From NCBI GenBank assembly GCA_029556915.1, contig JAKQIT010000050.1, forward strand, positions 62,001-126,000: 64,000 nt of DNA. Direction: 5' to 3'. The notes beneath the pieces are model-generated. The model was given only the letters and a program-made list of their open reading frames with translations. It was not told where the DNA came from and did no database searches. Below are positions 53,178 through 64,000 of this stretch, piece by piece (position 1 is the stretch's first letter; every line of letters begins with the position of its first letter). The stretch is from Pseudomonadota bacterium. Its GTDB lineage: Bacteria > Pseudomonadota > Gammaproteobacteria > Burkholderiales > Methylophilaceae. The position numbers and the translations under genes were made by a program.

Positions 53178-54068
53178 ATGCAAATCAAACCACGTATTTT
53201 TGATGACAACATAGCAAGTGCGCTCATCGCGCAAGGCGTCAATCCGCTACTGGCAAAGCTTTTTGCAGCGCGTGGCATTGTGGAATCGCAACAGCTCAGC
53301 GCAAATCTGGCTAGTTTGTTACCACCGCAAAGCTTAACCAATAACAAAGCGATGGCAAAATTGTTGGCTGATGCCATTGCCGACAATAAAAAGTTATTGG
53401 TGATTGGGGATTACGATGCCGATGGTGCCACAGCAACCGCGGTGGCAGTGAAAGGCTTAAAAATGTTTGGGGCAACTGTGGATTTTTTAGTGCCCAATCG
53501 TTTTGAATATGGCTATGGCTTAACGCCTGAAATTGTGCAGCTAGCCGCACAGCAAAAACCGGATATTTTAATCACGGTGGATAACGGTATTGCCAGCGTT
53601 GATGGTGTGGATGCGGCGAATGCACTTGGCATACAAGTGCTCATTACTGACCACCACTTGCCGGGTGAGATCACACCCAACGCTGCTTGTATCATCAACC
53701 CCAACCAGCATGGTTGCACATTTTTAAGCAAAAATCTGGCGGGTGTGGGCGTGATGTTTTATGCGCTATTAGCGTTACGGGCAGAGTTTCGCGCCCGTGG
53801 AAAGTTTGAAAATAGCGCAGAGCCTAATTTAACAGAGTTGCTTGATTTAGTGGCGCTGGGCACCGTGGCAGATTTGGTGAAGTTAGATGAGAATAACCGC
53901 ATTTTGGTCGAGCAAGGCTTGCGTAGAATCCGCGCTCGCGCTTGCAGTGCAGGTATTTTGGCGTTATTGCGTGTGAGTGGACGAGAGCCGCAACAAACCA
54001 CCGCACAAGACTTGGGTTTTTATCTGGGACCGAGAATTAATATTGTGAAGAAAACTTTGACCTACTGA
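53178..54068 (+). pseudogene. recJ: recJ 5' portion, interrupted by a mobile element
   Basis: RecJ is the 5'-3' single-strand DNA exonuclease of recombination and mismatch repair, normally about 565 residues. The N-terminal DHH core is intact: LLVIGDYDADGATATAVAVKGLKMFGA, LITVDNGIASVDGVDAANALGIQVLITDHHLPGE and LLDLVALGTVADLVKL. Family similarity runs to DLGFYLGPRIN (ends 54041), where INAAGR normally continues; instead the frame reads IVKKTLTY and stops. The DHHA1 and OB domains are missing. A mobile element starts here, so the 3' half should lie beyond the window. Confidence 0.9.
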
Positions 54069-54115
54069 CTGACTGATGTTATTTTTTTGATTTATATCAT
54101 TTAAATATAAAAGAT

Positions 54116-55954
54116 GTGCAAAATTTATCTTATACACAGTCTAGTGTAAAAATTAATACTATTTATAACTGGTATGGTATTCCTAAAACCTCTCAAAAGT
54201 TTTTAGATTTCACTCCAAGAACCTTTTCTAAGGATAGTCTTCTTGCGCATATTTTCGATGCGAATAAAACTGAAGATCCAATCAATACTAAAGAAGTAAT
54301 AAGAGCGTTTGGAAGTCTTAAGTATTTGGCAATGAGTGATTCTTGTTGGGCAATATTACAGAGTGAGCCTGAGTCGCTTTCATATCAGCAAATAGTGGAG
54401 TTGCTCATTTATCTTGAAGATCGAATTGAAGCACAAAATATCAAAGACAAATTCGAAAAAGCTACAAAGGAGAGAGTTTTCTTTGGGCGAGGCGAGATTT
54501 GCCTAAAAAACGGAGATACCGTATGGCTTGCAATTCGAAAATTCAAGTCTCGCTTTCCCTATTCTAGGAAGAGTTACTCTGACCTAATAGATGAATCCTT
54601 CTCAGCTACACCCTTTTCAACTATTGTCGAATTAAACGTTAAGGTTCAAGCTGCCTACGAAGATAGGTTAAAAGAAATTCTTAAGGCATGTGAAGAAGAC
54701 ATCAATCAGCATATGGAGTATGTTGAAGAATTTCATAAATTAAAGAATATCCCGCTAAGCACACCATACGAAAACAGTTTCAAAAATAGTTTTAGAAATG
54801 GGCATAAATATGTCAATTCAAAGTGCAACTCTATGGGCCATTGTGACGCAAGACTTGTAGAAGTTAGGAAATTGTATAGAGCTGATAACTTGGACTTATT
54901 TTGGAGAGAAGGTAATAGCTTTTACCCAGCTTCAAGTGTAAAACATTACGGATTTTATAGATTTGTAAATTTGGTAAATGACGAGCAAAGGTTTTATGGA
55001 GGCAGTGCAATACGCATTGGTGAAAAACTTTATGGATATTTTTTACCGGCGAGAATACTGCTTGCTTGCCAAATCGTATTGATGGCTACGACCGCAAGCA
55101 ATTCAGCTTCGATTCGGAGTTTATCTAGGGAGAGAATTCAAGAAACACCAGGTGCCTTTTACCTGGAATGCCTGAAAACAAAAACAAATAAACTTATCCG
55201 CCCAAAAATTGATAAGAGATCAAATTCATTGGCCGTAAAGGTTATTAATCTTCTCTTACAACACGATAAAAACATAGATTACTTTGGTTGGAAGAGAAAT
55301 TCAGATAGTGTTTTTTCAGTTCTCCATAACTTTGGGGAAGGCTATTTGTTTGAGCTTTTCTCTTATACCGAAGTATTCAAATATTTCAAAAAATGGCATG
55401 GCCTTAAGCCGTTTCGAATGGAAGATGTGCGTGACTTGGTGGCGCAACTTGATTATGTAACGCATAAAGACCCTTTTAAAACGCAAGCATTATTAAGTCA
55501 CCGTAATCTAGCAACAACAGATGCGTATTTAAAGGAAAATGTAATCGGTCTATTAAATAAAGCTAATGTTGCTGAGTTTATGCGGCGATTAGCCCCATCA
55601 ATAGTTTATTCAATAGCGCCGACTATGATCCAGGAACATGGTTTTGACCCTGAAAAAGTAGACACAAATTTACTTTTTCCCGTAAGTAATTATGATGATG
55701 TGACGGATGCACATTCGGATCGCTGGTTGCTGAACAAGGACGACTATCGCTTCCGCATTGATGCCGAGTCAATAAAACATTGCGCTTATCAAATGCACTA
55801 TTACAAAACACATTTTAACGCTTTGATAACTTCTAATGAATTAAGGTTTGTGTCATACCACTTACCGAGAATACTTTTCTGCAGGGCACTGTATAACCTT
55901 ATTAAAGCAAGCGAATACGGGAGCTTATTGCTTAAGGCGGAGGACCATATTTAA
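54116..55954 (+). CDS. Tyrosine-recombinase-like protein 1 of the element
   Basis: The 612-residue protein starts at GTG 54116. A catalytic-domain pattern is present: Arg334 (ASIRSLSR), Lys near 354-359, box II FRMEDVRD with Arg439, His462 (LLSHRNLATTDAYL) and the nucleophile Tyr471. The His normally three residues before the second Arg is replaced by Glu436. An unusual extension of about 140 residues follows the Tyr. The N-terminal 300 residues are unlike any domain I know. It is the first gene of the operon; its TAA overlaps the next ATG by one base. It probably acts in excision/integration with the other two recombinases. Confidence 0.78.
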   Translation: MQNLSYTQSSVKINTIYNWYGIPKTSQKFLDFTPRTFSKDSLLAHIFDANKTEDPINTKEVIRAFGSLKYLAMSDSCWAILQSEPESLSYQQIVELLIYLEDRIEAQNIKDKFEKATKERVFFGRGEICLKNGDTVWLAIRKFKSRFPYSRKSYSDLIDESFSATPFSTIVELNVKVQAAYEDRLKEILKACEEDINQHMEYVEEFHKLKNIPLSTPYENSFKNSFRNGHKYVNSKCNSMGHCDARLVEVRKLYRADNLDLFWREGNSFYPASSVKHYGFYRFVNLVNDEQRFYGGSAIRIGEKLYGYFLPARILLACQIVLMATTASNSASIRSLSRERIQETPGAFYLECLKTKTNKLIRPKIDKRSNSLAVKVINLLLQHDKNIDYFGWKRNSDSVFSVLHNFGEGYLFELFSYTEVFKYFKKWHGLKPFRMEDVRDLVAQLDYVTHKDPFKTQALLSHRNLATTDAYLKENVIGLLNKANVAEFMRRLAPSIVYSIAPTMIQEHGFDPEKVDTNLLFPVSNYDDVTDAHSDRWLLNKDDYRFRIDAESIKHCAYQMHYYKTHFNALITSNELRFVSYHLPRILFCRALYNLIKASEYGSLLLKAEDHI

Positions 55955-58314
55955 TGGCGGTTCGGGAAATGGGTGTTAAAAAGCTATTACCAGAACTAGA
56001 AAAGGATATTAAGTTCTCTGGGATTAGGCATCCTCGTATGCTTAGTGAGCCAGGGGAAAGTAGTATCACTTTCGATGTTGCCACCACTGGGGCGAAAAAA
56101 CAAAGGCTTCGGACAATAGATTTAAACAGCATAACTTTTGCCGGATATGGTGATAACAGTGTGTTTCAAGAACCTATTCCTTTTAGTCGATTTCCCTACA
56201 TTAAAGAAACAGTCTGGTATGCGCTAAATGAAACACTTAAGCGGCATAATGTTAGTAGCAACATTACAAATGAAATTAATGGGGTGATTCCTTTTCTCAC
56301 GTGCCTATATTCTTACCTGTTCCGGCATGGAATATATCGTCTTGAGCATGTCACACAAGACGATGTAAAGACGTGGTTAATTGATTTTATAGAACATGAT
56401 GGCTGGTGGAATCTTCTTGGCATGGGTCAGGCGCTTGAAAAGTTGATTGTAGACGCAAAAAAAGATCCCCCATTACGAATTTTTCTCTCGTCTGAATACA
56501 AAAAAGAAAGAGGATTCTTCTCATTTAACAAGACCTCCGTTTCGTGGTTGCTTGGTTTGCCTTTGCAGGGATTTCATTTCGGTGATATTCAGCGCAAATT
56601 GCATAGTGAGATATTTCCTGAATTAGCGATTGAGGGGTCCGGGTTAGGCGGTAACAATACTAGAGGTAAAATGACGAGCCAAGTGTTGTACACCGTGTTT
56701 AGGAAATTAAATTTTTATACGACTCAATTCCCAGAGGGGGTGGATCAGATTGGCTTTATTCCTATTCCAGAACCGATGGGCATGGCAAAGAAATTTGCAA
56801 AAGCACGAACACAAGAAAGAACGGCAAATATCACCCCCGAGTACGCAGTAAAACTTGTCACCGTCGCGTTTGACTGGGTTTACACCAAGTCTCCCGGTGT
56901 TATTGAACTGCTCACAATTGCACGCAAAGAAGCAGAGGTTCATGCGAAAAAAGGCAATAGCCGCAGTGCCTCAAAAAGCAACGTAAGATGGGCGGTTGAT
57001 AATCACTACCAAGCCATTAAGGAACAGTACGGTTTTGAGTGGGATTCGATCACGCTTGAAGGAAAAGGTGAGGCTGGTGACTCACTTAACGATTTGTTGG
57101 CTGTAGTCCAGTATGCCGCATTCACTTTAATAGGCATCAATCACGGTAGGCGAAAAAACGAGTTGATTGGTGAAGGTGATAAGCCTTATGGACTGTATCT
57201 TGGTTGCGTGAGTGTTATCGAGCAGCAAGTAGAGTTTGACCTCAAGAAAATCAATATCTATGTCGAAAAAACTTATCAGCAATGGAAAGAGTTTTGGTGT
57301 AACAAACTTGTTTATGATTCGGTAAGTATGTTGGAGAGCATCTATCAATTATTTAGACCCCTTAATACCCCTCCTATTCGGATTTCTAATTTTGAAGAAG
57401 CCAAAGAGCATAAGCTTATTCGCCGCAGGGTCTTAACCGATGTGCCCGAGTGGGCAGACAAAAGCAATTGGGTCGAGAAATTTAAAAGGGTCGAATACGG
57501 TCAAGATTCTCGCCCCTTCTTCAGGCTAGTTGATCCGGAAAGCTCTGTCTTAAGTCAAAAGTCCCATCCGAATCGCCGTCTCTTCGCCTGTTTATATCAC
57601 TACCGATACGAGTTCAGTGAGCTATTGGCACTCAGGGATCATCTAGTGCACAACGACACACTTATGACCCATAAGTATGTGACCGACCCAGATACGCGAA
57701 AGCTGGCCGAAACTATGCAGGAGGCTTGGAAGAACGAACAGGACGGTTTCGATAAGGTAATGGACGAAGTACAAAGGGAATATTTCAGAGACACTCTTAT
57801 TCAAATTATCAAAGGTGAGTGCGTCGGTGGGCGTTGGCCAAGGTTGGTTTCCAAACGATTAAAAACTCTTGCCAAGGATGCCGACTTTGTTGCATTGAGT
57901 GATGAAGACAAAGCATCTTTATTGACTGAAAAATTAACTCGCAAAGGCTATAAAGCGAATCCAAAATCGAATGGTATCTGCTTCTCAGGTTCAAACAAAA
58001 GCTCTGCTAGGTTAGCAAATTGTCATAGTAGCGAAGGATTGAACCAACAGAATGCTAGCCCGAGCATGTGTCATGGGTGCGTACATTTGTTTACCAATCA
58101 AAATTACCTGTCAGTAATGGAAGAAGAGTTGGCTGAGCTAGGAGGCCGTTCAAAAGATTTTCGATTGCCGATGCCTGTGAGGATTCAGGCCGAAAAGCAG
58201 TTCTCCGACCTCACAAAAATGATTCAACTAGAGCGCGAGATGGGTCAGGACAATCAGCGTTACTTGGCACAAAATATCCAGAATTGGACTGACTCAGGTA
58301 TTGCCAATGATTAA
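55954..58314 (+). CDS. Tyrosine-recombinase-like protein 2, with Cys-rich tail
   Basis: The 786-residue protein has a divergent recombinase core at 380-580: Arg399/400 (GINHGRRKNEL), Arg551 in LYHYRYEF (with Tyr where His is usual, His549 adjacent), His566 (LVHNDTLMTHKYV) and Tyr575. A long insert (410-540) separates the first Arg from the rest. The C-terminal part holds Cys676, Cys690, His691, Cys706 and Cys709, a possible zinc site (GICFSG, NCHSS, MCHGC). The ATG has GGCGGAGG upstream. In size and position it resembles TnpB of Tn554-type elements or the long integrase of trio islands. Confidence 0.75.
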   Translation: MAVREMGVKKLLPELEKDIKFSGIRHPRMLSEPGESSITFDVATTGAKKQRLRTIDLNSITFAGYGDNSVFQEPIPFSRFPYIKETVWYALNETLKRHNVSSNITNEINGVIPFLTCLYSYLFRHGIYRLEHVTQDDVKTWLIDFIEHDGWWNLLGMGQALEKLIVDAKKDPPLRIFLSSEYKKERGFFSFNKTSVSWLLGLPLQGFHFGDIQRKLHSEIFPELAIEGSGLGGNNTRGKMTSQVLYTVFRKLNFYTTQFPEGVDQIGFIPIPEPMGMAKKFAKARTQERTANITPEYAVKLVTVAFDWVYTKSPGVIELLTIARKEAEVHAKKGNSRSASKSNVRWAVDNHYQAIKEQYGFEWDSITLEGKGEAGDSLNDLLAVVQYAAFTLIGINHGRRKNELIGEGDKPYGLYLGCVSVIEQQVEFDLKKINIYVEKTYQQWKEFWCNKLVYDSVSMLESIYQLFRPLNTPPIRISNFEEAKEHKLIRRRVLTDVPEWADKSNWVEKFKRVEYGQDSRPFFRLVDPESSVLSQKSHPNRRLFACLYHYRYEFSELLALRDHLVHNDTLMTHKYVTDPDTRKLAETMQEAWKNEQDGFDKVMDEVQREYFRDTLIQIIKGECVGGRWPRLVSKRLKTLAKDADFVALSDEDKASLLTEKLTRKGYKANPKSNGICFSGSNKSSARLANCHSSEGLNQQNASPSMCHGCVHLFTNQNYLSVMEEELAELGGRSKDFRLPMPVRIQAEKQFSDLTKMIQLEREMGQDNQRYLAQNIQNWTDSGIAND

Positions 58315-58921
58315 CAAAATTCATGCATCCGAACAACAAAAGAAAGTATCTCGTTCGAAGATTACTGAGAAGCTAAGAGTGCTTAAGAACTGGTCTAAAG
58401 GAGGTTTGCCTTGGCAAACCGATGATAGAGGCAACGTAATAAGAGACTCGAATGGAGATAAGATTGTAGAATGGTTTCCAAGAAACAGCCGTCAATTCTG
58501 TGAGTGGAACAGAATGAAGTGCTCACAAGGTACGCAGAAATTAATTCCTGAGTTGAGCAGTATCAGCCGACAAACTTTCTCTAGAGAGTATAACGAAGAC
58601 TTAAAGAGTCAAGCTGAGGGTTTGTTCAAGGTGCTTATTGCGCTTGAAGAGAAGATGAATGCATCCTCTTCTAATGCAACCGAGATAGCCAAGCTAAAGC
58701 GTGACATTTCCTACTGGCAAGCGGTGGCTGAAGCTGAGGCCAATGCCTTATTGGAGATGATGCAAAGGCTCAACGAGATTGACAAACTGTACAACAAAGC
58801 TGAGCGCATCAGAAGAAATAATGAGGAACAACTCCAGGCAGAGATAAGAACTTTGAAGGCAGAGAACGCCGCTTTAAATAAAGTCGTAGCGAAGATTACA
58901 CCGTTGAAGGGTGTCGATTGA
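58307..58921 (+). CDS. Small coiled-coil protein 1 of the element
   Basis: The product is about 204 residues. The N-terminal half (LRVLKNWSKGGLPWQTDDRGNVIRDSNGDKIVEWFPRNSRQFCEWNR) looks like a small DNA-associated domain. The second half (about 95-195) is a long heptad-rich coiled coil ending QLQAEIRTLKAENAALNKVVAKI. It occupies the place of TnpC-type accessory proteins. The ATG lies inside the last codons of the upstream recombinase (8-base overlap), so a near one-to-one ratio is expected. No enzymatic motif is seen. Confidence 0.7.
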   Translation: MINKIHASEQQKKVSRSKITEKLRVLKNWSKGGLPWQTDDRGNVIRDSNGDKIVEWFPRNSRQFCEWNRMKCSQGTQKLIPELSSISRQTFSREYNEDLKSQAEGLFKVLIALEEKMNASSSNATEIAKLKRDISYWQAVAEAEANALLEMMQRLNEIDKLYNKAERIRRNNEEQLQAEIRTLKAENAALNKVVAKITPLKGVD

Positions 58922-59316
58922 TGACTAAGGAAAAAGGGAAAAGCGCGGCAGAAATCGCTCGTGATAACGTCACAAAGCTTCGCAGCTACGTTAACAAAAC
59001 CTCTGTCTCTGATATTCCAAAAAACCAATATCAAAAGTCATCAAGACAGCGAATTTGTAAAGAGTTGGGGATCACTTACTCTACGGTTGGCAGCAATGCA
59101 GACCTAGCCAGTCTATTCGACCAACTCGACAAGAAAACCAGTGCAAATAAATCCGAAGTAAAGCGGCCCAAGTCTAACAATACACTTCAGCTTAAAGCAC
59201 GAATCAGCACTTTGGAAAACCGGGTATCTTCACTGAAAGTGGAAAACGAGGCGTTACGTTCACAGATAAAACGATACGAGCACTTTGAAACCACCGGAAG
59301 GATGGCGCGGTCGTGA
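58921..59316 (+). CDS. Small coiled-coil protein 2 of the element
   Basis: The 131-residue product has a basic N-terminal helix region (KSAAEIARDNVTKLRSYVNKTSV), a short segment resembling a DNA-binding turn (YQKSSRQRICKELGITYSTVGSNADLASLF), then a leucine-zipper-like coil (LKARISTLENRVSSLKVENEALRSQIKRYE). In size it is close to TnpC of Tn554, though no residue-level match can be claimed. It overlaps both neighbours (TGATG and GTGA), so it is part of the coupled operon. Confidence 0.7.
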   Translation: MTKEKGKSAAEIARDNVTKLRSYVNKTSVSDIPKNQYQKSSRQRICKELGITYSTVGSNADLASLFDQLDKKTSANKSEVKRPKSNNTLQLKARISTLENRVSSLKVENEALRSQIKRYEHFETTGRMARS

Positions 59317-61520
59317 GCGAAGCTCAATTCAGCTTCAGGGGCTTGGTTCAACGGATTGTTAGCCACGGAGGTTTTGCAGGAGCCATATTTCTTGTAGAGC
59401 CTCTCAATTCCGCTTTTAGGGATTTAATAAAGGTCAAGCTGAATGCAAACGTACAGAGCAAAGTGCCTGCTCTTGGTGAGGTATGGGATATTACTGGTAC
59501 TCATGATGACGACATTTCTTATGGTTCGCAAATAATCGCTGAAGAAGCATTTCCAGTACTTCCGTCCGGTCGTGCTCTCGTAGAGTTCATTGGAAAAAAC
59601 CCAAAGTTCGCAGGTATTGGAATCCGAACCGCCCAAAATATGTGGATGTCATTCGGGGATGAACTTTACGACATACTGACTCAGCAGAATCGAGAGCTTC
59701 TTCTGACTAAAGTTCATCTGAATGACACGCTTGTGGAGATTCTTTTCGCGGCATGGGAAGAGTATGAGCGAATCATTCCAGTGGTGAGGTTTTTCCATGG
59801 ACTTGGATTCAACGCCAAACTTGCTAACAAAGCTGTTGAGTTTTGGGGTAAAGAAGCCGTAGAGAAGATTAAAGAGGATCCATACCGTTTATTGGCATTT
59901 GGGGGATGGGGTCAAGTAGACGCAGCAGCTCGGGATAAACTCAATGTTTCCAGCGATGCAGAGATACGTCTGATGGCTGCTGTTGAAGAAGTTCTATACA
60001 GGTCTTATGAAGACAAGCACACTGCACAGGACTACCAATCTTTACTCACTCGTACAGAACGGCTTTTAGGGGTCTCTCAGGACTCAGAGAGGGCAATTAA
60101 ACTGGCGCTGGCTGATGGGCGAGTTCAGGCATTGGAAGATGCCAACTATGGCAGCTTATATCAAGTGGCAGACGCGGCGGTTATGGAACGGTTTATCCGA
60201 GAGTGTATTACTGGAATCAGCCAAGGTGAAAACCATCAGATTTCGATGTTTCAAAAGTCTTTCTCAGATAAGCGTCTCGCAGAATTTGAAGCTAAACTAC
60301 CTTATCAATTGGCAGAAGAGCAGCGGCTAGCAATAAAAATGGTTGTTGAGCAAACATTTGCCGTCATTACCGGTGGAGCAGGAGTTGGGAAGACTACGGT
60401 TTTGCGTGGGGTTTATCACATGCTCCCGGAAAATGCCATAATCATTCAGGCCGCTTTGACCAGACAAGCTGCCTCACGCATGAGTAAATCAACGGGCCAG
60501 AATGCAATTTCTATAGACAAGTTGTTGTTTGCAGCTTCTAAGAATGAGCTTCCCGAGAACGCCTACTTTTTTATTGATGATGCCTCTACGTTGGATGTGC
60601 CTACTTTTTACAGGATTTGTAAGGCTCTGCCTACGGGCTCTAGGCTCTACCTCGTTGGAGACCAATACCAGTTGCCACCTATGGGCCCCGGTCTTGTTTT
60701 GCACCAATTGGTAGAAGAGGGCTATCCGCAGCTAACGAACCTTACAAAAGTTCATAGACAGCCTAATGAGGCAGGGATACCCATAGTCGCTGAAGCTATA
60801 CGGAATATGGCTCCACTCATTTTAGAACAGTTTGTGAGTGGCAAATCTAAAGGAATTGGAGTGTCGATTTATCCGACTTTCGATATGTCTACATTAATAG
60901 ACGATGTCCTAGCTGTGTACCGAGAATTCGACCATGCAGGTGAAGTCCAAATCTTGGCTGCACGAGATGAAACTTGTTTGCAAATTAATCGAGCACTACA
61001 CCTTGAGAACAAGGCCTATCGAGAATATAGCAAACAGGAAACTCATGCTTTATTAACAAATGAATTGGAACTATGTGAAGGCGATAAAATCCTCTACAAA
61101 AACTCCAATGACTTTAAGCGCAAACTGTTCAATGGTTCCCTTGGCGTCATAACACGGATTTATGACAACCCAATTTGTAAATCTAATGATTATGGTGACA
61201 TAGAAATAGTCGTGGCAGTAGCAGAGTTTGATTCAGCAGGAGCAATTCAAATAACAGAGAATGACCTTGAATATATCAACCTCGGGTATGCTATTGCCGC
61301 ACCAAATAGCCAATGGGAGCGTGTTGTAATCGTTTCCGAATTCGTTGAGAAAGTAAGTTCCATCGTGGATAACGCATGGTTTTATACTGCCGTAACTAGT
61401 TGCGAGAAGCAGGCTGTCATCGTTGGGTCACAAGTCAACTTTTCATATCACATCGGTATGCCCCCTAAAGCTTTTTCGCGGATTATAGGCTTAAGCTTTA
61501 AAAATACGGAGGTCATGTGA
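59313..61520 (+). CDS. RecD2-like SF1B helicase of the element, degenerate motifs
   Basis: The 735-residue protein starts at GTG. The N-terminal part (60-230) follows RecD2 with helix-hairpin-helix segments (KFAGIGIRTAQNM, FFHGLGFNAKLANKAVE, DPYRLLAF). Motor motifs are Walker A GGAGVGKTT (354-362), Walker B FFIDDAS (419-425; Asp-Asp instead of Asp-Glu), motif III GDQYQLPP (449-456) and HRQP (481-484). Late motifs are altered: YAIAAPNSQWERVVI lacks the usual HKSQG, and YTAVTSCEKQ lacks the Arg finger position of YTAVTRA. It may remodel DNA ends for the recombinases, possibly with weak ATPase activity. Confidence 0.8.
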   Translation: MSEAQFSFRGLVQRIVSHGGFAGAIFLVEPLNSAFRDLIKVKLNANVQSKVPALGEVWDITGTHDDDISYGSQIIAEEAFPVLPSGRALVEFIGKNPKFAGIGIRTAQNMWMSFGDELYDILTQQNRELLLTKVHLNDTLVEILFAAWEEYERIIPVVRFFHGLGFNAKLANKAVEFWGKEAVEKIKEDPYRLLAFGGWGQVDAAARDKLNVSSDAEIRLMAAVEEVLYRSYEDKHTAQDYQSLLTRTERLLGVSQDSERAIKLALADGRVQALEDANYGSLYQVADAAVMERFIRECITGISQGENHQISMFQKSFSDKRLAEFEAKLPYQLAEEQRLAIKMVVEQTFAVITGGAGVGKTTVLRGVYHMLPENAIIIQAALTRQAASRMSKSTGQNAISIDKLLFAASKNELPENAYFFIDDASTLDVPTFYRICKALPTGSRLYLVGDQYQLPPMGPGLVLHQLVEEGYPQLTNLTKVHRQPNEAGIPIVAEAIRNMAPLILEQFVSGKSKGIGVSIYPTFDMSTLIDDVLAVYREFDHAGEVQILAARDETCLQINRALHLENKAYREYSKQETHALLTNELELCEGDKILYKNSNDFKRKLFNGSLGVITRIYDNPICKSNDYGDIEIVVAVAEFDSAGAIQITENDLEYINLGYAIAAPNSQWERVVIVSEFVEKVSSIVDNAWFYTAVTSCEKQAVIVGSQVNFSYHIGMPPKAFSRIIGLSFKNTEVM

Positions 61521-63295
61521 AGATTGACCTTTTAGTAGAGGAGTTACCTGATTACGTTGACCTCGTTTTGATGATAGGTTTACCAGGTAGCGGGAAAACC
61601 GTCATCGCAAAGAAATTGGCTTCAGAAAAGGGATTGATTCACCTTGAGGCAGACCAGTTCTTTATTGATAACGAGACTGGAGAATATGTATTTGATCATA
61701 GCTCGCTAGATAAAGCTCATCAATGGTGTCTCGCGGAGACTAAGCGACTTTTAGAAGTGGGACAACGTGTAGTTGTTGCCAATACATTCGGTACAGTCAA
61801 GTCACGCAAAAGTTATTTCATGCTCGGATATAAGGTCGCTGTGCACACTGCGACTGGCAAATATAAAAGCATCCATGACTTATCTGAGAATGTTTTGAAA
61901 GAAATGCGTTTGAATTGGCAACCATATCATCTGTCAGAATTCGCTGCGAACATCGAGCCAAAAATAAAAAATGATCTCCGTTACATTTGGCCGGTTTCTG
62001 TTCAGTGGGGAAAGTTACCGGGCGGCTACAAATCTCCCATTTTTTTTGATGGTAAGTTGAAGATTATCGAACCATTTACGCGATATTGTCTCGACATTAC
62101 CAAAATAAACTCACGCTTCAAGCGACGTGAGCAGGCTCATAAATCAGAAATCAACAATGCAAGCCTCGCGTTGAAATTTTTAGCTGAGTTTATGCGAGTA
62201 CATAAACTTGAGTGGGATCAGGTGGACGACGGTTATCTTGAGCAATTTAGAACATGGTATCTAGAAAAAATTGAGCAGAGTTCTCAAACACGCAATAAGT
62301 TATCTCGAATGCGTACTGTAAACATTAGGCTGCGTGAGATTTATAACTTTTATCATTGGGCGCAAGAAGAGGCTTGTTTAGTTGAAAACTACATCGGCTG
62401 GGAATTGCAAAGCAAAATACGCTCGAAACTTCCCGCATATATCAAGGATGGTCAGTCGGCCCTACCGAGATTCGGCAGGGATAGCCTTCTATATCCCAAG
62501 CTTTTCCCAAACGTTGGTAGTTCAGCAGATGTTATCGATTACACCGCCAGCGACCGTGACAAAGATAAACTCAAAGAGCTTTTTGAAACACAGGGGGGCT
62601 CGGATTACTCACTGCGTCGCAATATACTGATTATGGAAATCGCCGCGTCAGTGGGATGGCGTCAAGGAAGTATTCACTCACTACTTATCGATGCTTTTTC
62701 AGATGAGAAGATTGAAGGTTGTGATACTGGTTTCTTGACTGTTCAGCCACCAGAGCAAAAGTACGGATATCAGTTTGAGTTTGAGGTTCCACTTGCCTTG
62801 GCGTTGAGGATTAACCGCCACATAAAAAGCGATAGAGCAAACTTATTGGCTAGCAAGAAACTTAAGGAAAATACAGCTAAACTACATTTATTTGTAAGCT
62901 CGACCACAGGAGAACCTCTGGCAAGAAATACCATAACAGAGATTTTTTCCAGAGCTTTCACCGCTATTGGTGCTCCACAAGGCGCGGGCATTCATTCATT
63001 TCGCCGCAGTTTCACAACAAATGAGCTCCGTTTCCAAATCGATTCGCGTAAACGCAAAAATCTTTCGACCGCTCCTGAGGACGTAATGTTGCCAGTGCAA
63101 AGAGCACTCGGTCACAAGAGTCCTCTCAGTCAGCAATCCTATGCAGATGCCTCTCAGTCACTCACAAGAGATACCGTTGAACGGGAACTGCGTGATGAAA
63201 ACCTGCACCTGAGAGCAGAACTTGCGGAAAAAGAGCGTGAGATTTCGATTCTCGTGGCAAACTTGAAAAGAAAAGGATCTCAGGAAACTAATTGA
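61517..63295 (+). CDS. Polynucleotide-kinase-like domain fused to a tyrosine recombinase
   Basis: The 592-residue protein starts at GTG behind GGAGG. Residues 15-150 are a P-loop kinase of the AAA_33/PNK-like type: Walker A GLPGSGKT (21-28), EADQFF (44-49), YVFDHSSLDKAHQWC and VVVANTFG. Residues 200-300 resemble a SAM-like core-binding domain, and 360-550 a complete tyrosine-recombinase catalytic domain: Arg382 (VGWRQGS), His493-x-x-Arg496 (IHSFRRSFT), His533 (RALGHKS) and Tyr542. A coiled coil (552-585) ends the protein. Of the three recombinases in the operon it has the most canonical active site. The fusion is, to my knowledge, unusual. Confidence 0.85.
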   Translation: MKIDLLVEELPDYVDLVLMIGLPGSGKTVIAKKLASEKGLIHLEADQFFIDNETGEYVFDHSSLDKAHQWCLAETKRLLEVGQRVVVANTFGTVKSRKSYFMLGYKVAVHTATGKYKSIHDLSENVLKEMRLNWQPYHLSEFAANIEPKIKNDLRYIWPVSVQWGKLPGGYKSPIFFDGKLKIIEPFTRYCLDITKINSRFKRREQAHKSEINNASLALKFLAEFMRVHKLEWDQVDDGYLEQFRTWYLEKIEQSSQTRNKLSRMRTVNIRLREIYNFYHWAQEEACLVENYIGWELQSKIRSKLPAYIKDGQSALPRFGRDSLLYPKLFPNVGSSADVIDYTASDRDKDKLKELFETQGGSDYSLRRNILIMEIAASVGWRQGSIHSLLIDAFSDEKIEGCDTGFLTVQPPEQKYGYQFEFEVPLALALRINRHIKSDRANLLASKKLKENTAKLHLFVSSTTGEPLARNTITEIFSRAFTAIGAPQGAGIHSFRRSFTTNELRFQIDSRKRKNLSTAPEDVMLPVQRALGHKSPLSQQSYADASQSLTRDTVERELRDENLHLRAELAEKEREISILVANLKRKGSQETN

Positions 63296-63561
63296 CTTAA
63301 CTCATTTTTGACATTGTTTAAGATTGTAGTTGGGTCGGATTCATTGCTATTTATTAAATAAGACAAAGTTAATAAAGTAAGGGGATGGATGCCGATAACT
63401 TTGGCAATAGCATCTATTTTCTCGACTGTTGGTGAATATAGCCCACGCTCTAATGTGCTGATATAGGTTCTGCTGGATATTTCTGAGAAATCTTCTTGTG
63501 TGATTTTTTTTACTTTTCTTGAAGTTTGAATAGCCAATCCGACTGATTTTTTTATGTTCAT
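63280..63561 (-). CDS. XRE-family transcriptional regulator
   Basis: The 93-residue protein has a Cro/CI-type helix-turn-helix (about 8-62): VGLAIQTSRKVKKITQEDFSEISSRTYISTLERGLYSPTVEKIDAIAKVIG. A short C-terminal helical tail follows. It converges on the recombinase operon (16-base overlap) and diverges from the next gene. Inverted repeats fill the 97-base gap before that gene, which is where such a regulator would bind. AAGGA lies 9 bases before the ATG, inside a perfect hairpin. Confidence 0.88.
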   Translation of the reverse strand: MNIKKSVGLAIQTSRKVKKITQEDFSEISSRTYISTLERGLYSPTVEKIDAIAKVIGIHPLTLLTLSYLINSNESDPTTILNNVKNELSQLVS

Positions 63562-63658: not shown

Positions 63659-64000
63659 ATGTTCCAAACCTTCAATCATGCCAAAATTCGTTTGCCATTT
63701 TCTTCTCCAGATGAAAGTGCTTGGGCTTATTTAGAGTTGATGGTCAATTCGTACTTTTTCTTTGCAGATTGCCTAATTACAGAAGATGCTATTAACATCA
63801 GCACTTCGTATATATTATCCAACCCAGGACAGTTGACCGAACTCAGTACAAATAAGAATGTGTCTATCAAGGGAGTTTATGTTATATCGCCACCCCATAT
63901 GAATTCGACCGAATCATGGAAAATGGACAGGGTTGCTCAAGTTAGTAGTGGTGTAACAATTGAAGATAATTACAAAGTGAACATTGAAATTTATGAATTA
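63659..64000 (+). CDS. Partial unknown gene, probable element cargo
   Basis: The reading frame from ATG 63659 stays open for 114 codons to the window end. The product begins MFQTFNHAKIRLPFSSPDESAWAYLE and continues with mixed sheet/helix character, no signal peptide and no motif I recognise. It diverges from the XRE gene across paired inverted repeats, the usual layout of a regulated cargo or defence operon in islands. No function can be assigned from this fragment. Confidence 0.65.
   Translation, partial: MFQTFNHAKIRLPFSSPDESAWAYLELMVNSYFFFADCLITEDAINISTSYILSNPGQLTELSTNKNVSIKGVYVISPPHMNSTESWKMDRVAQVSSGVTIEDNYKVNIEIYEL

Follow-up and report, generated by a model that had tools for sequence, protein, structure and literature searches.

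The 64-kb window analysed here (the whole stretch of 64,000 nucleotides) carries an operon of six plus-strand genes that directly follows the 5′ part of a host recJ gene (Table 1). The first-pass annotation of this DNA had described these six overlapping genes (54116..63295) as a candidate mobile-element core. All six frames are present in the list of open reading frames (ORFs) of the window, and reading of the junction letters showed that every gene overlaps the next one, with TAATG, ATGATTAA, TGATG, GTGA, and GTGA at the successive junctions. The gene 2/gene 3 junction ATGATTAA corresponds to an 8-base overlap, provided that gene 3 begins at the ATG at 58307; its other potential start is a TTG at 58301, and gene 4 may start at 58918 (TTG) or at 58921 (ATG). 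As far as can be judged from the sequence, a genomic island with this operon at its left end interrupts host recJ, and related operons occur at other split genes.

Table 1. Predicted features of the recJ-operon region, in window coordinates.
Feature	Position	Strand	Predicted product and evidence
Host recJ 5′ part (residues 1-285)	53178..54032	+	NF008290 RecJ, E 8.8e-104, model positions 15-293 of 577
Island left end	54033..54115		Junction letters read by eye
Gene 1	54116..55954	+	Tyrosine-recombinase-like, 612 aa; alignment, residues checked
Gene 2	55954..58314	+	Large tyrosine recombinase, 786 aa; alignment, residues checked
Gene 3	58307..58921	+	Coiled-coil protein, ~204 aa; weak coiled-coil-like matches, alignment
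Gene 4	58918..59316	+	Small coiled-coil/helix-turn-helix (HTH)-like protein, 132 aa; profile matches, alignment
Gene 5	59313..61520	+	RecD2-like SF1B helicase, 735 aa; TIGR01448, alignment
Gene 6	61517..63295	+	Tyrosine recombinase, 592 aa, N-terminal P-loop kinase domain (residues 16-104)
XRE-type HTH regulator, operon end	63280..63561	-	HTH_3, E 1.6e-8
First cargo ORF	63659..64000	+	141 aa in full, extends beyond the window

The host recJ gene is cut within the motif GPR|LNAAGR. The host part ends after 'LGPRIN', and the broken frame continues into element DNA until a stop at 54068. The corresponding 3′ part, beginning with '..RLNAAGRLDDM', is located on contig C22 (L010:8943-9791) and is the sole RecJ-type 3′ part in the genome. 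The GPRLNAAGR motif is unbroken in all 11 same-genus recJ loci read. The partial recJ, the 3′ part on C22, and the unbroken motif in the relatives therefore indicate that the island spans from contig C49 into C22; 40,341 bases from position 54033 to the end of C49 and a further 8,658 bases on C22 amount to approximately 49 kb read. At the left end, ATTAATATTG (54036-54045) is matched imperfectly, and in inverted orientation, by CAATATAA at the C22 right end, and the right-end letters are common to a second genome, G717. With respect to the extent of the element, the operon as first annotated stood, while the recJ target upstream (53178-54032), the far end, and the stand-in gene described below had been missed. 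By reading of the translations, the cargo on C49 comprises copper and cation efflux genes and P-type ATPases. Further cargo comprises an IS1182 transposase close to the end of the contig and a UvrD-like helicase, next to which is encoded a 1147-aa protein that distantly resembles the anti-phage protein Upx (L010:14861-18304; 420 bits to Upx at a cut-off of 1900).

Beside the right junction and oriented inward lies a complete second recJ gene, recJ2 (L010:10074-11849; 591 aa, no internal stops). Its product has DHH, DHHA1, and OB domains with the motif residues DxD, DHH, and GGH present, and is about 31% identical to host-type RecJ. A survey of the family returned a recJ2 match in 141 of 150 genomes, with at least 66% identity in five: G000 (the window's own genome), G676, G717, G732, and G761. 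In the other 136 genomes, the best recJ2 match was no stronger than E 1e-65, and among the matches listed identity did not exceed 35%; these are mostly full-length frames, with fragments in the draft genomes G704, G803, and G814. Both parts of host recJ were seen in G000 (split near residue 285), in the one-contig genome G676 (split at the DHH codons, near residue 158, with 49.5 kb between the parts), and in G732 (split in motif I, near residue 80, on a single contig, with one TGA inside the listed 3′ match). In G717, a 3′ part starting at the same codon as in G000 lies beside recJ2. The operons of the same-genus genomes G676 and G732 (L036:11217-16779 and L070:5412-11018) consist of four genes encoding three recombinase-like proteins and a small protein, and we call them GInt-type by architecture only. 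They differ from each other, the three large proteins being 23-26% identical, and each island carries recJ2. recJ2 occurs in islands with the six-gene operon and in islands with GInt-type operons and is thus common to two recombinase systems and three insertion sites. Among 300 genomes surveyed at the order level, a threshold of E 1e-80 was passed by G000 and G526 (39% identity) only. G761 (87% complete) holds a 66%-identical recJ2 relative (L073:12611-14401) with no other RecJ match, so that host recJ was not found in this genome, and with no recombinase in the stretch read; this gene is possibly a settled replacement after loss of the island.

Genes 1, 2, and 6 are predicted tyrosine recombinases, in agreement with the earlier annotation. 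Gene 1 retains Lys354, Arg439, and Tyr471 and has Asn329 in place of the box-I Arg. Gene 2 displays the set R400, H538xxR541, H566, and Y575 and, in its C-terminal part, a pair of Cys residues (C706/C709). It matched nothing in Pfam, NCBIfam, or PHROGs, and no family model was matched directly by gene 1. Both were assigned to the recombinases because the catalytic residues are conserved among four sequences and, for gene 1, also because its Alteromonas counterpart matches Phage_integrase (PF00589) with 30.6 bits, above the cut-off of 27.1. Gene 6 contains R382, K415, H493xxR496, H533, and Y542; its matches to Phage_integrase and XerC/XerD are all under the cut-off. The proposed RecD2-like helicase, gene 5, scored 293.5 bits to TIGR01448 (RecD2; E 2.8e-87), under the 500-bit equivalog cut-off. 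A kinase-recombinase fusion had also been proposed as a core feature; the kinase domain of gene 6 is limited to the window copy and absent from the counterparts in all three relatives, which rules this out. Scans with PADLOC and PHROGs gave weak or generic matches only, and no tRNA genes were found in the window.

The first-pass annotation had raised the possibility that the gene order is unique to this genome. It is not: the six-gene order also occurs in the gammaproteobacterial metagenome-assembled genome G309 and on an Alteromonas plasmid, at other loci and with other cargo, as expected of a mobile-element core. The gene 2 query matched 2 of 369 class genomes, the window's own and G309, and the gene-2 alignment query matched 3 of 300 order genomes, namely the window's own, that of a distant relative (G422), and G628; the last was dropped, the match lying in a 267-aa frame without partner genes. 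Among 72,556 plasmid records, three matched, two from Alteromonas mediterranea and one from Methylibium petroleiphilum PM1; of the Alteromonas plasmids, pAMCP48-600 was read and NZ_CP018028 was left out. In viral contigs, none of 48 pattern stretches obtained with the gene-2 alignment was confirmed. In genome contigs, a first search yielded two stretches, none confirmed, and a later one 20 stretches with a single locus, the G309 contig. All six G309 genes match the window genes directly and in the same order. On the Alteromonas plasmid, genes 2, 5, and 6 match directly, gene 1 via Methylibium, and gene 3 via G309, while gene 4 was assigned by position and a 21% alignment. The Methylibium plasmid carries a four-gene version that lacks RecD2 and gene 4; here genes 1, 2, and 6 were identified by match and the coiled-coil gene 3 from its position. 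The RecD2-like gene and two small coiled-coil genes, previously suggested as core components, are hence common to three of the four members (Alteromonas gene 4 by position only). The Alteromonas and Methylibium islands, too, have annotated HTH genes close to where the operon ends. In the former, a reverse-transcriptase-family gene and an HTH gene (L014:15478-16467) directly follow the six-gene operon.

All four islands of this family that were read split a gene, namely recJ, tRNA-Leu(UAA), nrdB, and dcd, and the target is not restored. The putative stand-ins are complete homologous genes in three of the four islands and an analogous deaminase in one; those for recJ, tRNA, and nrdB all occupy the island end opposite to the recombinases. 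A split tRNA-Leu gene is found in G309, with its 3′ half close to gene 1 and its 5′ half on contig C6. The joined halves yield tRNA-Leu(UAA), and we infer that the two contigs represent one island. A second tRNA-Leu gene, located about 120 bases inside the far junction, bears a 234-base interruption after the first anticodon base and reads UAA when spliced. The interruption scored 46.7 bits (E 9.4e-11) along the entire group I intron model, just below the gathering score of 50, and its position equals, within about a base, the island's target place in the host tRNA. Two further tRNA-Leu genes of G309 matched by the 5′ pattern read CAA and CAG; the pattern could miss another UAA gene.

On the Alteromonas plasmid, the nrdB gene beside nrdA lacks the C-terminal tail (the model match ends at 355 of 376), the part of NrdB that binds NrdA. 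The missing tail, NYLVGQIDSAVSEDDFIDFQL, is located on the other side of gene 1, and a complete second nrdB occurs together with yfaE at the island's far end. The ends of this island show exact 99-bp tandem duplications (2.0 copies, 100%; L084:25234-25431 and L014:6567-6765). These are probably k = 99 contig overlaps left unmerged at the junctions, which hints at the coexistence of integrated and excised or circular forms in the DNA sample. On the Methylibium plasmid, the halves of dcd flank the island, which has inverted repeats, TAATGTAGT, at both ends and a near-identical 6-base stretch, GGCATC/GGGATC, at its ends. No second Dcd homologue was present in the two fetched stretches holding this island. 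It encodes a protein with a dCMP/cytidine deaminase domain (E 1.4e-21), which scored 67.6 bits against ComEB at a cut-off of 219. Deamination of the dCMP type is another route to dUMP, and this deaminase could provide dUMP in place of Dcd. Among the stand-ins, dcd is the weakest case. In the more distant G422, rtcB (L089:8289-8858 and L038:4111-4851) is split at LGTLGT|GNHFIE by an island of about 28 kb with a distant four-gene recombinase operon and, by eye, arsenic- and efflux-like cargo. RtcB is dispensable in bacteria.

Taken together, we consider it quite probable that the six genes constitute a module for site-specific island integration and excision, that insertion splits the target gene, and that the island brings a stand-in for it. 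The products of genes 1, 2, and 6 would form one complex with the small factors encoded by genes 3 and 4, similar to TnpC, GinD, or Srap. This complex may insert the island at a conserved host-gene site that it recognises, and the RecD2-like helicase may unwind DNA in an excision or copy-out step. Insertion splits the target, as seen for recJ, tRNA-Leu(UAA), nrdB, and dcd, and the island would supply the lost function through the stand-in. The stand-in itself is probably not a target, because the equivalent of the target site is altered in two cases, the divergent recJ2 and the intron-split tRNA-Leu. With it, the host would tolerate the insertion; after the target has been broken, losing the stand-in would be costly, resulting in an addiction-like dependence.

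Our confidence is evenly divided on a broader proposition: that a class of islands exists whose way of life includes breaking a costly gene. Such islands would aim at the most strongly conserved functional sites in housekeeping genes. A stand-in matched to the target and altered at the attachment site, be it a divergent paralogue, a tRNA with an intron, or even another enzyme serving the same metabolite, would be a standard part, exchangeable between unrelated recombinase systems, and would both permit insertion and addict the host. Integrating elements are usually described as sparing their targets by choosing gene ends or by rebuilding the gene; the present islands run through functionally conserved stretches of their targets and seem to supply a replacement, and the carriage of stand-ins as a rule looks new. 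Among the matches listed from the library searched, there was no published account of such carriage or of the six-gene set, and thus no sign that the same six genes are already described as an element family, an outcome which the first-pass annotation had left open.

Several observations weigh against this interpretation. The structure models of the gene 2 and gene 1 products were uninformative (pLDDT 39 and 40, respectively). The window island and the G309 island are each distributed over two draft contigs, and the window genome has a contamination of 5.65%. The recJ 5′ part was not found in G717, a genome that is 78% complete. The dcd stand-in is non-homologous, lies beside the operon and not at the far end, and is under the ComEB cut-off. 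Methylibium dcd and Alteromonas nrdB are plasmid-borne, and chromosomal copies were not searched for, so that the stand-ins in these two islands need not be essential. Finally, PF01139 detected only the two rtcB halves in the G422 genome, with no RtcB stand-in. A stand-in in every island of the wider kind is ruled out by this case, and stand-in carriage is therefore not universal in the wider group.

That the operon belongs to the published gamma-mobile-trio group, with extra genes added, appears doubtful. Gene 4 matches the VPA1267 family (NF040697; 41.5 bits, E 1.4e-10), of which it would be a distant relative, and VPA1267 is part of VPaI-6 (VPA1253-VPA1270), which we take to be a gamma-mobile-trio island; such islands are said to carry defence cargo, reportedly as described by Mahata and co-workers in 2024. 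However, the score of gene 4 is below the cut-off of 90. Three further weak matches to this family fell in G065, G066, and G334. No trio-named NCBIfam model was matched by genes 1-3 or by those of the relatives, although NCBIfam may hold no trio models. NF040692 (recomb_assoc), a neighbouring accession, gave no match in the window genome, nor in any of 14 control genomes, and is uninformative.

A reversed order of events, in which recJ2 or another spare was gained first, the old gene became dispensable, and the island landed later, seems improbable. Plasmid-borne RecJ relatives of recJ2 are common (166 records from Xanthomonas, Bacillus, and others, the top listed rows showing 38% identity), and in G761 no recombinase was seen in the stretch read around the recJ2 relative. 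In contrast, recJ2 adjoins the end of the insertion, on the inside, in G000, G676, and G732, and in G717 it neighbours the recJ 3′ part; the tRNA and nrdB stand-ins are likewise just inside the island end, and the 136 family genomes with a host-type RecJ match only point against a prior gain of recJ2. It is also quite unlikely that this is an ordinary multi-recombinase cargo island of the GInt, SE, or Tn554 kind with coincidental stand-ins: the varied cargo and the G422 island would fit, but a gene of the target function is present in all four family islands read (one by analogy only; chance expectation not computed), and the three types of recJ insertion all have recJ2 at the end of the island.

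If target splitting with stand-in carriage is general, it would explain puzzling split core genes in assemblies and would offer a replacement route for core functions such as recJ, nrdB, tRNA, and tmk. It would also provide a concrete case of an intron within an integration site, and a search rule, namely a split core gene together with a gene of the same function inside the insertion. In addition, the predicted six-gene recombinase module is marked out by a RecD2-type helicase of its own.

Transposons with tyrosine recombinases have been divided into five groups, ICE/IME, SE, GInt, RIT, and Tn554 (PMC10214605). According to the gene lists of that source, the six-gene set occurs in none of SE, GInt, RIT, and Tn554. 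The earlier annotation had nonetheless pointed to the right neighbourhood with Tn554 and multi-recombinase islands. Tn554 is likewise site-specific and has two recombinases of different size and a small auxiliary protein; it has three recombination proteins, no helicase or third recombinase being listed in the portion seen (PMC10214605), and the six genes here are set apart by gene content from TnpA, TnpB, and TnpC. As described in the same source, SE share with the present islands a large and an ordinary recombinase, a recombinase-fold protein without catalytic residues, and a coiled-coil auxiliary protein, as well as a 6-bp footprint and few selected targets. In contrast, SE possess four core genes in another order, and the word 'helicase' is absent from the main text of that source (PMC10214605). 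By this description, the intA-tfp-intB-srap block is distinct from the six-gene operon in both gene order and content.

Excerpts of the GInt description (PMC5385486) reveal further similarities: three tyrosine-recombinase-like proteins and a small auxiliary protein encoded by a terminal operon, variable cargo, site-specific insertion, a GinC protein that lacks the first catalytic Arg as does gene 1, and an overlap of about 6 nt, which in our case is visible by eye at the Methylibium and Alteromonas junctions. The layout of operon, cargo, far end, and site-specific insertion is the same in the window island, with recJ split and the right end on C22. In ginABCD, ginD comes after three consecutive integrases; here the order is recombinase, recombinase, coiled coil, coiled coil, RecD2, recombinase, so that the third recombinase comes last. 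A GInt insertion probably does not fully inactivate its target (PMC5385486), whereas the insertion here splits it. Taking the G676 and G732 operons as GInt proxies, hhalign comparison with the six-gene recombinases gave probabilities of 0.1%, 2.8%, and 21% from shallow alignments of 4 and 2 rows, which lends no support to kinship with these four-gene operons.

The nearest functional precedent is the tmk island of Pseudomonas putida KT2440, here taken from excerpts of its description (PMC10653934). This 65-kb island splits the essential tmk gene and carries as its last gene the stand-in PP_1964, which was shown to be the essential thymidylate kinase. dNMPK-bearing tmk islands are present in several genera and also encode a TetR regulator, an unknown protein, and two tyrosine recombinases, and the authors present the KT2440 island as a first-case example and not as a rule (PMC10653934). 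It resembles the islands described here in that an essential gene is split and a stand-in is carried, and differs from them in its target, tmk.

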